29,558 nt of DNA from a virus, in IMG/VR virus record IMGVR_UViG_3300037042_001297, positions 1 to 29,558 of that record, one strand, 5' to 3'. This document shows, piece by piece, positions 2,581 through 9,792 of this stretch. Made by a program: the position numbers and the translations under genes. The stretch's first letter is position 1. Each line of letters opens with the position of its first letter. The notes below the pieces were generated by a model, which did no database searches, was not told the origin of the DNA, and saw only the letters and a list, made by a program, of their open reading frames with translations.

Positions 2581-3474
2581 ATGACGATCACCTATCTCTC
2601 GACTGGCGACAAGCTCGCCGCCCGTGCCCTTCGCTCTGCTCGCCGCTCGACGGGGCACCTTGGACAGCTTGCCAAGATGACCGGAGCCGCTGTCAAAAGC
2701 GAAGTGAGCGCCAGCAACACCGGAGACTGGCGCTTCGACGGCACCCATGTGGTGCGCCTTGGCAACCGCTTCCACACCAACATTGAAAAGCCAGCGGGTT
2801 GGAGCCGTCGCGGTTCGGCACTGCACCGCAACGACCGACACGCCGTCGCCTTCGCCGCACAGATTCTCCGACACGAGAAGTGGCATGGGCTGGTGACGGT
2901 GCGCGATGTGCGAGCGTTGGCCGCTGCGTGTCACTGTGACGCTGTGCCCTTCGCGGTGTTCAACATCTTGGAAGACATTCGCATTGAGTGGAAAGCGAAG
3001 AGCGTCGAAGGGGCATGGTTCGAGTGGGTGCGCTGGGTGGCGATCAATCCTGCCGCCAACGCCATTCACGCCATCCTGAATATGAAAATGGCAGAGACGA
3101 GCGGTTGGGGTTCACGGTGGACCACTTCCGACGAGAACGAGCGGGACTTGGAATTGTTCTTCACTCGCTCTCGCAACGCTGTCGATTCATGGGAAGTTGT
3201 CAAGCTGGCAAAAGAGTTCGTCGAGCGGTTCGGCACCGATGCTCCGCCGCCCGACACGGTGGCGAAAGGCCAACTGCACGATGACATCGGTGATGACAAC
3301 GACGGCAGCGCAGGTGGGACGGCCACTCGGAGCGGTGCGATTCCCGATGCGCCGTCAGCCGAAGCCGATGCTCACATCGAAGTCGATGACAACGGCGAAA
3401 TCGTGATGCCGAAGGGCACACCGAAGACCAACACCGCGCAGGTTCACTGGACCGAATTCACCGGAGCGCTCTGA
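2581..3474 (+). CDS. CobT N-terminal/metallopeptidase-like protein with HExxH
   Basis: A 297-residue protein starting at the ATG one base after the AAA+ stop. An upstream in-frame start at 2449 would overlap the AAA+ gene by 130 bases and is not preferred. It has a zinc-protease-type HEKWH motif (98-102) and, about 26 residues later, NILEDIRIE (128-136). That arrangement is seen in CobT-like and VWA-associated metallopeptidase-like proteins, where the second acidic segment can supply a third metal ligand. The C-terminal third (about 225-297) is acidic and Asp/Gly-rich, like the linker before the VWA domain in CobT. The VWA domain itself is in the next gene, so the pair looks like a split CobT. 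Whether it cleaves peptides is unknown. Confidence 0.68.
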   Translation: MTITYLSTGDKLAARALRSARRSTGHLGQLAKMTGAAVKSEVSASNTGDWRFDGTHVVRLGNRFHTNIEKPAGWSRRGSALHRNDRHAVAFAAQILRHEKWHGLVTVRDVRALAAACHCDAVPFAVFNILEDIRIEWKAKSVEGAWFEWVRWVAINPAANAIHAILNMKMAETSGWGSRWTTSDENERDLELFFTRSRNAVDSWEVVKLAKEFVERFGTDAPPPDTVAKGQLHDDIGDDNDGSAGGTATRSGAIPDAPSAEADAHIEVDDNGEIVMPKGTPKTNTAQVHWTEFTGAL

Positions 3475-3475
3475 C

Positions 3476-4132
3476 ATGGTTGATAAGACACAAGCCGACA
3501 GCATCGCACGAAAGCTGCGCGAGACGATGGTCGCCGCCAGCAACGACAACGAACGCCGCTTCGTCTCGACTGGCTTTCGACTGCACGTTGGCAACGCCGC
3601 CAGCGGCGACGACCGACCGTTCACCAAGGCCGTCGAAGTGGGCGGCGCGCCAAACATGGTGCTAGTGGTTGATATGTCCGGCTCGATGGGCGGCGACTTC
3701 GTGAAACACGCACAAGTATTCATCGCCGCCTTTCTCCGCTTGCTTCGGAGCGGTGATGTCACGGGCTCGGTGTGGCTGACGGGCGGCAACAAACACGCAC
3801 ACATTCCCGCCAACACCACCGACGCCGCGCTCGGATACTTGGCCGCGATGAAAGAGTGCGAGTCAGTCGCCGACACGCTCGACGCACTCAAGCCGTACCT
3901 GCTCGACGCCGATGTCACGGTGGTCTACACCGACGCCGACTTGACAGACCGCGCCGTCGATGCGGCGGCATGGCGAGCGAAGGGTGTCGATCTGATCGGT
4001 GCGGTGGTTGGCGGTCCCTACCGCGCCCAAGCCATGAAGCGCCACTTCGGACGCTCGGTGGTTGGCTCCTCTGGCCTCGACTTGGCAACCAAGCTGGTGG
4101 CCTATCTCGCAACGCGCACGGCAACACGGTAA
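3476..4132 (+). CDS. VWA-domain protein with MIDAS motif (CobT C-terminal-like)
   Basis: A 218-residue von Willebrand factor A domain protein. The metal-ion-dependent adhesion site is visible as DMSGS (residues 66-70, DxSxS) after the hydrophobic strand MVLVV. A later strand, VTVVYTDADLTD (about 147-158), carries the usual TD element, and a final strand is VDLIGAVVGG. About 50 residues precede the domain. VWA proteins bind partners through a coordinated divalent metal and pair with MoxR/CobS ATPases. The gene begins one base after the stop of the HExxH gene and is the third part of the AAA+/HExxH/VWA set. The target of the complex is not evident from the sequence. Confidence 0.83.
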   Translation: MVDKTQADSIARKLRETMVAASNDNERRFVSTGFRLHVGNAASGDDRPFTKAVEVGGAPNMVLVVDMSGSMGGDFVKHAQVFIAAFLRLLRSGDVTGSVWLTGGNKHAHIPANTTDAALGYLAAMKECESVADTLDALKPYLLDADVTVVYTDADLTDRAVDAAAWRAKGVDLIGAVVGGPYRAQAMKRHFGRSVVGSSGLDLATKLVAYLATRTATR

Positions 4133-4648: not shown

Positions 4649-4746
4649 ACCGCCCCTCGTTCCTCGACCGTCACCCTGCGCTCGTCGTTGCCTTTCTGTT
4701 CGCCCTCTGGCTCGGCCTCGGTATCGCGGAGGGCATGGGCTACTGA
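4645..4746 (+). CDS. Small membrane peptide (33 aa)
   Basis: A 33-residue frame: MNRPSFLDRHP, then a hydrophobic run ALVVAFLFALWLGLGIA, then EGMGY. It has one membrane span, and the charged N-terminus suggests an N-in topology. The start overlaps the previous stop as ATGA, which argues for coupled translation. It is the last gene of the rightward operon before the 4847-4882 terminator. The function is unknown. Confidence 0.55.
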   Translation: MNRPSFLDRHPALVVAFLFALWLGLGIAEGMGY

Positions 4747-4769: not shown

Positions 4770-4807
4770 CTTGTCAACCGTGACAAGCTGGCAAGTCACG
4801 GTATATT
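4770..4807 (+). promoter_or_regulatory. Sigma70-like promoter overlapped by two nested palindromes
   Basis: GTGACA (4780-4785), 16 bases and TATATT (4802-4807) give a good plus-strand promoter. CTTGTCA-ACCG-TGACAAG (4770-4787) is a perfect 7-bp inverted repeat covering the -35. ACCGTGAC and GTCACGGT (4777-4784 and 4795-4802) form a second perfect repeat spanning the spacer. The overlap suggests an operator for a repressor or activator. The only thing downstream before the terminator is the short RNA at 4813-4882. Confidence 0.6.
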
Positions 4808-4812
4808 GTGGA

Positions 4813-4882
4813 CATCGGTTCTGGCGGGGACTGATGCTCACAACAGAAAGGGACATCTCCGGAAACGGAGGTGTCCCTTTTT
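4813..4882 (+). ncRNA. Candidate phage small RNA (about 70 nt)
   Basis: Transcription from the promoter at 4780-4807 should start near 4812-4814, between the last operon gene and the terminator. The predicted RNA opens with a 9-bp stem (4813-4821 with 4828-4836, two G-U pairs, loop UGGCGG). A short single-stranded CUCACAACAG (4837-4846) follows, then the terminator hairpin with its U-run. No credible reading frame fits. Promoter, 5' stem, linker and terminator in 100 bases is the typical layout of a bacterial regulatory RNA. The identity is inferred from structure only, and I know of no family that it matches. Confidence 0.5.
4847..4882. terminator. Bidirectional intrinsic terminator between convergent operons
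   Basis: GGGACATCTCCG and CGGAGGTGTCCC pair over twelve positions (one T-G) around a GAAA tetraloop, flanked by AAA on the left and TTTTT on the right. It stops the rightward operon and the small RNA. On the minus strand it lies five bases after the stop of the last leftward gene and is followed by TTTCTG, so it probably also ends that operon. Confidence 0.88.
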
Positions 4883-4887
4883 GTGCG

Positions 4888-5205
4888 TTATGGCTTTGCT
4901 GTTTGATACGGATGCCGCCACGGGGGAGGTGAGGCAGAGCCACTGTCCCACCGCTCCTTCCGATCCTTCGCGCCCTTCCCTTTGTGCATATCGCGGAAGC
5001 AGTCGCCAAGCGAGGTCCATGCAATCGTCTTCCCGCTCGGCGTCATCGGTGAGACATCGCGGATGGAGGCAGTGACGATGATCCGATTCCCCCGCAGCCC
5101 TTTGACAACGAACCGCAGAGTGCTGTCATCCCAACGGCACGAGACGGTGGAGTTGTCGGAGAGGCGAACACGGTAGCGGTCGTTGTGGGTCAGGTACAGT
5201 CTCAT
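4888..5205 (-). CDS. Hypothetical phage protein (105 aa)
   Basis: A 105-residue protein, last gene of the leftward operon. The start at 5205 is chosen because it overlaps the upstream stop as ATGA; a longer in-frame start would overlap the neighbour by over 100 bases. The first 55 residues look like alternating beta strands (MRLYLTHNDRYRVRL, TVSCRWDDSTLRFVVKG, RIIVTASI), and the tail is basic and Pro/Ser-rich. I recognise no family. Confidence 0.55.
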   Translation of the reverse strand: MRLYLTHNDRYRVRLSDNSTVSCRWDDSTLRFVVKGLRGNRIIVTASIRDVSPMTPSGKTIAWTSLGDCFRDMHKGKGAKDRKERWDSGSASPPPWRHPYQTAKP

Positions 5206-5951: not shown

Positions 5952-6313
5952 CGCTCCTCCAGTATCCAAATGTGAATCGTTGCCCCAGCGGTGTGCTTGT
6001 CCGGTTTGACAAACTGCCACTGTTCTTCTCTGACCTGACTGTCGTCGAGCCACACCCCACCGCCTTCGGTGATCCCGTCCTTTAGGTTCTTGCTCCAGTT
6101 GAAATCGCGGCGGCGTCGGTCAGGCTCACGCACGATCACGCGCAGCCCGACATCACACCCAACGACAGGCCACTGCTGCGCCGTCGCTGCCTCCACCGAC
6201 ATCTGTGCGATCAACACCTTGCTTGCGCGGTATGGCTTTGACAAAATAAATCGCGTCACGTACTTCCGGTTATCACTGCACAAAGCAAGCCACGGGACAT
6301 CAAACGTCAGCAT
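5948..6313 (-). CDS. RusA-like Holliday junction resolvase
   Basis: A 121-residue protein, the usual RusA size (about 120). The diagnostic stretch is PDRRRRDFNWSKNLKDGI (residues 64-81), followed by GVWLDDSQV (86-94). These match the RusA pattern of a basic PDxRRRD, a following N and K, then D and a DDSQ turn, which supplies the acidic metal ligands. RusA dimers cut four-way DNA junctions, and phages use them to resolve recombination or replication intermediates before packaging. The start at 6313 has AGGAG eight bases upstream and overlaps the primase-helicase stop by one base (TAATG); an ATG 18 bases further up is less likely. Confidence 0.87.
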   Translation of the reverse strand: MLTFDVPWLALCSDNRKYVTRFILSKPYRASKVLIAQMSVEAATAQQWPVVGCDVGLRVIVREPDRRRRDFNWSKNLKDGITEGGGVWLDDSQVREEQWQFVKPDKHTAGATIHIWILEER

Positions 6314-8615: not shown

Positions 8616-9103
8616 CGGTTCCTCAGAAGAAGAGATAGCGGGCGAAGCGGGAACGACTCGGCGGCGCTAAAATCAAGGAAGGCGTTCTCTCGCACGGCCA
8701 CTCCCCCTTCGCATGTATTTTGTGTCGCGGTCTTGCGTTGTTCCCACGACCCCGCATCGGTGATGTGCCAGAGGTAGCACACGTCATCGGGGAGCAAGAG
8801 CGCCGCGACATAGAAGGGCACCGAAAGCAATCGGCTCACGGCAAGGCCATCAGTCAGCTTTTGTGCGGTGATCAGGTAGGTGTCACCCCATGCGCGCATC
8901 TGCTTTCGCGAATGCGTCCGCACCTTATGTTCGCTGCACCCCACGCACACCCCTTTCCGTTCCCAAATGGCATCAACGGGGGTCCGGTCTGACCCCGTAG
9001 CGAGCAGCGTAGCGGCAAAGCGTCTGCCCACCGCAGCGCGAAGCATCCGCTCTGCGTTGTTGAACGGCTTCGCGGCTTCGCTATGGACGGCAAGTGCGCT
9101 CAT
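8612..9103 (-). CDS. PD-(D/E)XK nuclease-like protein (163 aa)
   Basis: A 163-residue protein with a possible PD-(D/E)XK core. E18 in an N-terminal helix is followed by TPVDAIWERKG (D44) and GCSEHKVRT (E58-x-K60). The spacing from D to ExK, about 14 residues with hydrophobic strands, is right for the fold. It could be a Holliday-junction-type or restriction-type nuclease, or a nuclease relative without activity. It lies between a replication-initiator-like gene and the unknown 8058-8615 gene, with ATGA overlaps to both. The assignment rests on a short motif and needs profile confirmation. Confidence 0.45.
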   Translation of the reverse strand: MSALAVHSEAAKPFNNAERMLRAAVGRRFAATLLATGSDRTPVDAIWERKGVCVGCSEHKVRTHSRKQMRAWGDTYLITAQKLTDGLAVSRLLSVPFYVAALLLPDDVCYLWHITDAGSWEQRKTATQNTCEGGVAVRENAFLDFSAAESFPLRPLSLLLRNR

Positions 9104-9792
9104 ACTGCCGCCATTTTGTCAAACTCCTCGACATCTTGCCCAGACCGTGCCCATTCGTCGCGAGTCCGACCGCCCACGGTCTGCTCACAAAACGCCTTCC
9201 ACGAATCGTCTGCGAAGAACCGATGGATCGTCTTGATATACTTCTGCTCCGTGCCGTTCTTTGTCACATACGCAGCGTAGCTATGTGCCGCCTTCGCGAT
9301 GTCGTCGCACGATACACCCGCCGTGCGGAGATCGCGATAGGCGACGACAAACAACGGATACGGGCTGGGTACGTCACGCTTCGGGAAGGTACTCCAGCAG
9401 TACGACATACACTGCGTGTCATCACCCGTTAAAACATATCGTTCCTTAACTCGTTTGGGTGACTGCACTGACTGGGGTGGGGTGACAGCCGTGACGGGGG
9501 TGGGTGACTCAGTAGACACCCCAGACACCCCGTCCAACATCACATCGTACAGGTTCGTGCGTCCCATCCGTTCCGTCTTGCGTATGTATCCTGCCTCAAT
9601 CAGTGCAGACAACGACCGCTGCACGGTACGCTCGGACAGGTTGCTCTCTTTTGCCAGCGTTGCTACCGATGCCCAGACGTTCCCGCCCAAGCGGTTGGTG
9701 TGCGTCCCAATGGCACACAGGACGCGAACATGGACATCAGTCAGGCGAGGATCAGCAACGGCGGCGGCGGGGATGATGCTCAGGTTTGGCAT
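9100..9792 (-). CDS. Winged-helix replication initiator-like protein
   Basis: A 230-residue protein. Residues about 17-85 form a winged helix-turn-helix: LTDVHVRVLCAIGTHTNR, then WASVATLAKESNLSERTVQR, then the wing region GYIRKTERMGRTNLYDV. This is the pattern of phage replication initiators (lambda O type, helix-turn-helix PF13730 family). A Pro/Thr/Val linker (about 90-115) joins a C-terminal domain ending with IKTIHRFFADDSWKAF, also common in these proteins. It probably binds the phage origin and brings in the primase-helicase encoded downstream. A transcription regulator is the alternative. Confidence 0.72.
   Translation of the reverse strand: MPNLSIIPAAAVADPRLTDVHVRVLCAIGTHTNRLGGNVWASVATLAKESNLSERTVQRSLSALIEAGYIRKTERMGRTNLYDVMLDGVSGVSTESPTPVTAVTPPQSVQSPKRVKERYVLTGDDTQCMSYCWSTFPKRDVPSPYPLFVVAYRDLRTAGVSCDDIAKAAHSYAAYVTKNGTEQKYIKTIHRFFADDSWKAFCEQTVGGRTRDEWARSGQDVEEFDKMAAV

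Follow-up and report, generated by a model that had tools for sequence, protein, structure and literature searches.

Control of replication initiators by RNA is a classic plasmid device; the antisense RNAs known from phages act on lysogeny, antirepression or genes of the host. On the plasmid side, the small self-terminating RNAII of pMV158 inhibits translation of the initiator mRNA by pairing with it (PMC4485353). In phages, P22 sar acts on ant and lambda OOP on cII as antisense RNAs (PMC12197685; for OOP also PMC3349717); lambda PreS acts on host dnaN, and VP882 VpdS, working with Hfq, targets RNAs of both host and phage (PMC12197685). Bacterial sRNAs with C-rich loops (e.g. actinobacterial 6C RNA) pair through a short GC-rich loop at ribosome-binding sites. 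In the open-licence literature searched, we found no phage sRNA acting on the phage's own replication initiator.

Here we consider a locus in a 29,558-nt stretch of viral DNA (IMG/VR record IMGVR_UViG_3300037042_001297), all of which we call 'the window'. Positions 4780–4884 are likely to be an independent, free-standing gene for a phage sRNA of ~72 nt starting at 4813–4814; its transcription is inferred from sequence, without RNA data. The predicted target is the mRNA of the phage replication initiation gene, rep. A cis antisense RNA of plasmid type would be encoded opposite its target with full complementarity; this is not the case, as the sRNA occupies 4813–4884, rep starts at 9792 and the predicted duplex has 18 bp with a bulge. 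Nor is the arrangement that of lambda OOP or P22 sar, which are antisense to cII or ant and lie in the immunity region: the RNA is complementary to rep without overlapping it and is located at an operon junction.

The predicted sRNA element and its surroundings

The element lies where two operons converge, the rightward one stopping at 4746 and the leftward one at 4888. Products of the leftward operon are a RusA-like resolvase, a primase-helicase, the lambda O-like rep, a small HTH protein and an exonuclease. The rep gene (9100–9792, minus strand) was identified as encoding a lambda O-like/HTH_36 replication initiation protein by matches to PHROG 270 (E = 9e-22) and Pfam HTH_36 (E = 5e-13). 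Among named phages the closest is an uncultured podovirus (P22-like portal, 40% identity in the helicase); in this relative, MW202627, a motif scan found no such element and the covariance model described below gave a match at chance level only. Bacterial genomes searched for a host yielded no match to the helicase and one weak Dietzia match to rep (29% over 88 residues), left unused for host assignment. The gene at 3476–4132 showed a weak von Willebrand A-like match (VVDMSGSMGG), under the Pfam cut-off.

A promoter scan placed a sigma70-like promoter, GTGACA-16-TATATT, at 4780–4807 on the plus strand; four sites of this kind were seen in 3 kb, with 0.5 expected from shuffles. Six nucleotides past the −10 box, at the predicted transcription start, begins a 5′ hairpin of 10 bp with a GGCG loop (4813–4836, plus strand), supported by folding and covariation. 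The apical loop and the 3′ side of the stem present the putative target-pairing core, UGGCGGGG (4822–4829), an invariant block among otherwise divergent hairpins. Folding and repeat search identified an intrinsic terminator at 4843–4884, a strong stem with arms of 19 nt (4843–4861 and 4866–4884) that are 89% complementary. Since the stem is flanked by a T-tract on its 3′ side and an A-tract on its 5′ side, termination is possible on both strands, and the terminator could thus provide the 3′ end of the sRNA as well as of both converging operons.

The minimum free energy of the sRNA fold was −52.9 kcal/mol, compared with −23.7 ± 2.9 kcal/mol for shuffled sequences (z = −10). No plausible protein is encoded in the element, open reading frames crossing 4780–4884 being mechanical only. 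No Rfam family reached its gathering cut-off for the element (permissive thresholds gave low scores at chance level only), and blastn of the locus against named phages gave no match. The element has what is expected of a stand-alone sRNA gene, namely its own promoter, structured RNA, an intrinsic terminator and no ORF; it also meets the requirement of covarying RNA structure, as none of 500 shuffles reached the covariation score given below.

An earlier note on this DNA, made without database searches, had claimed the promoter, the 5′ stem, the strong terminator and the absence of a fitting reading frame; all of these held, the first three within 4780–4884. Its 9-bp stem was corrected to 10 bp, and its 10-base linker to about 6 nt when pairing between the A-tract and U-tract is counted. 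The two overlapping perfect palindromes it described held in part: they are interrupted inverted repeats with perfect arms. The first, CTTGTCA-ACCG-TGACAAG (4770–4787; arms 4770–4776 and 4781–4787), overlaps the −35 box; the closest relative, L008, has an exact copy, TTGTCANNNNTGACAA, in the equivalent position at its promoter. The second, ACCGTGAC-N10-GTCACGGT (4777–4802; arms 4777–4784 and 4795–4802), covers the −35 box and spacer and was not seen in L008. Regulation through the palindromes, also suggested earlier, thus keeps partial support, only the first repeat being conserved, and in one relative. The inverted repeat TTGTCAACCGTGACAA, which the window and L008 promoters have in common over the −35 box, is a possible operator for an unidentified regulator.

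Across the whole window, this promoter repeat has 22 matches at ≤3 mismatches, with 10 expected; one of its near copies, TTGTCCGGTTTGACAA (5997–6012, one mismatch), lies inside the RusA-like gene. A long non-coding stretch at 240–600 is rich in TTGTCAA/TTGCCAA/TTGACAA half-sites (260, 373, 398, 517, 549 and 585), and the half-site is present at the sRNA promoter as well. This stretch may be an operator or origin region.

Related elements in other phages

Relatives were gathered from IMG/VR through a neighbouring gene, the helicase and rep; a search through the von Willebrand A-like gene found none. Besides the window, 14 IMG/VR loci from related P22-like podoviruses share its arrangement of a TANNTT −10 box, a hairpin that presents UGGCGGGG and an intrinsic terminator. 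The 15 RNA loci are the window, L008, L016, L022, L009, L010, L023, L012, L020, L031, L025, L017, L027, L037 and L030. Redundant entries were L003 (same record as L016), L006 (L022), L005 (L020) and the pair L011 and L014 (sequence of L012). The elements were found partly through the core, GGCGGGG, so invariance of the core partly reflects how the loci were selected; L025 and L017 came from looser searches. As read from the sequences, the TANNTT box precedes the hairpin in 15 of 15 loci, with TTGNNN at 17–18 nt in most.

The hairpin stems diverge widely between loci yet are still paired. In eight aligned hairpins 94.6% of cells were paired, and the covariation score was 0.714, compared with 0.444 in shuffles (0 of 500 as high) and ≤0.332 in slid controls. 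Within the group to which the window belongs, all cells (100%) were paired, with two compensatory pairs; being based on three sequences, this evidence is weak alone. A covariance model of the eight members recovered all eight and one left-out close relative, L030. It missed the window group, which uses another register of the tetraloop (GGCG, versus UGGC in most other loci). In L017 the core is located in the linker after the hairpin.

Position and strand of the element are variable. Mostly it is convergent with the replication operon; in L012 it is on the same strand as this operon, and in L023 it sits upstream of rep, where the genes on either side were called on a single strand. The −10 box and 5′ hairpin are kept where flanking genes and terminator sequence change. 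Such variation probably reflects an independent RNA gene rather than a fixed 3′ UTR. In a near neighbour, L002, the junction is occupied by another gene and an ordinary terminator that lacks the hairpin (the part of the contig examined excludes rep).

The earlier note's main claim, a dedicated ~70-nt phage RNA perhaps acting on phage mRNA through its loop, is supported by this comparison (transcription remaining inferred), because promoter, hairpin and terminator recur together in varied places and orientations with covarying stems. The UGGCGG loop it suggested proved to be the invariant part of the family. The covariance search in related phages that it proposed succeeded for the eight members and L030 but not for the window group. 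Its alternative, a shared terminator only, is unsupported, since conservation covers the 5′ hairpin and −10 box but not the terminator sequence. It named no target; rep is newly proposed here.

Several candidates were set aside. A covariance-model match in L032 was dropped as coding sequence. A weak hairpin variant, CCUUGGCGGGU, with −10-like box and terminator was observed on the minus strand of L033 (12250–12286) and L036 (13532–13568); it was left uncounted, as the rep start has no complement. Rep of these two phages also has no N-terminal HTH part, and several other genes begin with (A/T/C)CCCGCC-ATG. In L013 (about 3020–3121, plus strand) a promoter-like sequence, TTGACT-TAGACT, leads directly into a strong terminator; this could be another very short RNA gene. 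The reading of the element as an RNA anti-CRISPR (solitary repeat) was rejected by reasoning, as its stems vary and the apical core is constant.

Complementarity to the start of rep

The complement of the core, CCCCGCCA, was first spotted directly at start codons in a motif scan of the relatives, and rep is the gene that carries it throughout. It was present within 32 nt (about 30) of the rep start in 15 of 15 RNA loci, compared with 16 of 319 other genes (P = 7.5e-18), and was always in sense orientation (15/15 versus 0/15 reversed). Rep is the sole gene matched in every RNA-bearing phage; of the nine phages without a counted RNA, seven have no complement at rep.

Among 7-mers shared by rep starts, CCCCGCC was the commonest (14 of 15), ahead of any 7-mer that includes the start codon. 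Its position shifts between the leader and codons 7–9. The rep leader ends with CCCCGCC-ATG in L009, L010, L017, L027, L030 and L037, and so does that of a truncated rep homologue of L012; in L020, L023 and L031 the complement is a few bases further upstream of the ATG. In the window, L008, L016 and L022 the site lies within rep, at codons 7–9 (ATC CCC GCC). In L025 both partners have changed, with UGGCGGUG in the RNA and CACCGCC twice in the rep leader, the most telling case outside the window group. Separately, we observed that rep of L009, L010 and L017 begins shortly past the gene upstream, whose end is conserved and AAGAAATAA-like; the two are likely to be translationally coupled.

The window group has the more extended pairing. 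The predicted duplex in the window joins sRNA UGGCGGGGA-c-UGAUGCUCA (4822–4840, i.e. 4822–4830 and 4832–4840 with C4831 bulged) to codons 4–10 of rep mRNA, UGAGCAUCAUCCCCGCCG (9765–9782, minus strand), in 18 bp. A genome-wide scan with the whole 5′ domain was noisy for longer RNAs and was replaced by a core-based scan, in which the rep start was the best of 9805 genomic 28-nt windows of the record (−34.1 kcal/mol) and likewise came first or close to first in L008, L016, L022 and L017. Among gene starts rep ranked first in these same five phages. After opening of both partners the net hybridisation energy was −23.4 kcal/mol, a value as low as which was reached by none of 400 random windows; the rep start itself is little structured (−5.3 kcal/mol).

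The same 18 bp are predicted in L008, 20 bp in L016 and 16 bp in two blocks in L022. With the core kept, the 3′ flank beyond it paired better than shuffled flanks in the window, L008 and L016 (p = 0.003 each) and in L022 (p = 0.010). In L016 both partners are altered: GCUUAGG of the RNA matches CCUAAGC of rep, where in the window GCUCA matches UGAGC. Cognate RNA/target pairs outperformed permuted pairs (−26.8 versus −23.8, p ~ 1e-4). What characterizes a trans-encoded base-pairing RNA (partial complementarity near a distant start, with changes in both partners) is therefore met, strongly in the window group and by the core only elsewhere.

Several points limit this evidence. Outside the window group the match is mostly the 8–10-nt core, the 3′ flank adding nothing in several phages; apart from L017, rep there ranks 2nd–13th of 17–27 gene starts by duplex energy. 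The pooled P values treat related phages as independent and so are too small. In codons 7–9 CCCCGCC encodes Pro-Ala (within Ile-Pro-Ala), which is conserved by the protein; because the near-identical L028 and L029, without RNA, also carry CCCCGCC at rep, the motif there is favoured by protein sequence too. CCCCGCC-ATG is also seen at some non-rep genes of the clade, and part of the complement signal may come from a general start-site preference or local start-site habit, or from further targets. A generic 'GCC-ATG' start preference was examined and fails to explain the codon 7–9 sites and the extended pairing. L030 and L037 have four genes each, rep included, with CCCCGCC immediately before ATG; a wider set of targets is possible in these phages.

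Proposed mechanism, alternatives and known systems

Sequence supports the conserved architecture, the covariation of the stem, the paired changes and, in each phage that has the RNA, a complement at the start of rep. We consider repression of Rep synthesis by a trans-encoded antisense sRNA to be the best explanation, and a likely one; transcription, repression and physiological role are inferred, there being no transcript or regulation data and no identified host. An RNA of ~72 nt would start at 4813–4814, present UGGCGGGG on its hairpin and end at the bidirectional terminator. The core and the 3′ arm of the hairpin would pair with rep mRNA, whose gene is about 5 kb distant, in the region where translation begins; this pairing is inferred to initiate in the loop and to spread as the hairpin opens. 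The duplex would occlude the ribosome on rep mRNA, leading to less Rep and less genome replication. Codons 4–10 or the AUG fall inside the region occupied by a starting ribosome, and for this reason repression is the most likely outcome of pairing there. By analogy, the virus is likely to use the predicted sRNA to limit its own replication in the style of plasmid copy-number control. A bolder reading, which we offer only as a possibility, is that the RNA family is widespread, sets each phage's replication level and is an RNA-based determinant of incompatibility or superinfection; if so, each lineage's RNA matching its own rep, the RNA of a resident phage would block rep of a close relative and not of a distant one.

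Of the alternatives, the one that survives best, while still unlikely, is that the RNA is real and its main targets are other phage or host mRNAs, making it a general translation regulator at SD-N-CCCCGCC-AUG starts. Non-rep genes of L016, L023, L030 and L037 do have CCCCGCC-ATG, 16 of 319 other genes have the complement near the start, and other starts pair more strongly than rep in several non-window phages. However, only rep is matched in every RNA-bearing phage, the extended complementarity and paired changes involve rep, and the window has no CCCCGCC-ATG start anywhere.

We also doubt that the RNA activates rep translation, by opening structure or recruiting ribosomes. In favour of activation, rep leaders of L009, L010 and L017 have CCCCGCC in the Shine-Dalgarno place with no evident Shine-Dalgarno sequence, and phages lacking the RNA have a strong purine-rich one at rep; against it, pairing over codons 4–10 or at the AUG covers the ribosome footprint, and the window rep start offers little structure to open (−5.3 kcal/mol).

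Somewhat less credible still is a DNA-level site (e.g. Rep-binding site or origin element) shared by the element and the rep start without RNA pairing. Initiators of the lambda O type do bind to repeated sites, and their origins can sit inside the initiator gene. This reading is opposed by the hairpin covariation, the fixed-register promoter and terminator and the constant orientation (15/15 versus 0/15); the long but imperfect match, which includes a bulge and G-U pairs, also suits RNA recognition rather than DNA recognition. Finally, the element might be no more than a bidirectional terminator whose stabilising hairpin belongs to the 3′ UTR of the rightward operon, with neither its own promoter nor a trans function. 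This would suit its place at a junction of convergent operons, as seen in the window and most relatives, the stem-loop serving both strands and the hairpin-less terminator of L002. It is very improbable given the persistence of hairpin and −10 box where flanking genes and terminator sequence change, the changed orientation relative to the replication operon in L012, the location upstream of rep in L023 and the complementarity to rep, which it leaves unexplained.

Repression of rep by a trans-encoded RNA remains our preferred reading, and its parts have parallels in known systems. Compared with 6C RNA, the loop has the complementary polarity, being G-rich, and there is no Rfam match. As in PreS and VpdS, a phage-encoded sRNA is predicted to base pair in trans; unlike them, it is predicted to act on the initiator of the phage that encodes it, through a G-rich structured hairpin, with no data on Hfq dependence. 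With sar and OOP it shares the design of a short self-terminating phage RNA with its own promoter directed against a key phage mRNA (PMC12197685, PMC3349717), and it differs in having no sequence similarity to them and a replication initiator as predicted target. The sRNA and rep would make a directly testable RNA/target pair, and for short intergenic RNAs of uncultured phages a target is assignable from sequence alone.

In predicted action the closest parallel is pMV158 RNAII, also a small self-terminating RNA directed against initiator mRNA. The phage sRNA falls outside the plasmid antisense class because it is not encoded opposite its target: plasmid copy-number RNAs are encoded opposite rep and are fully complementary to it, whereas this RNA is encoded 5 kb away and is partially complementary. 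If the prediction is true, an RNA family co-evolving with rep and encoded away from it extends plasmid logic to lytic DNA phages.
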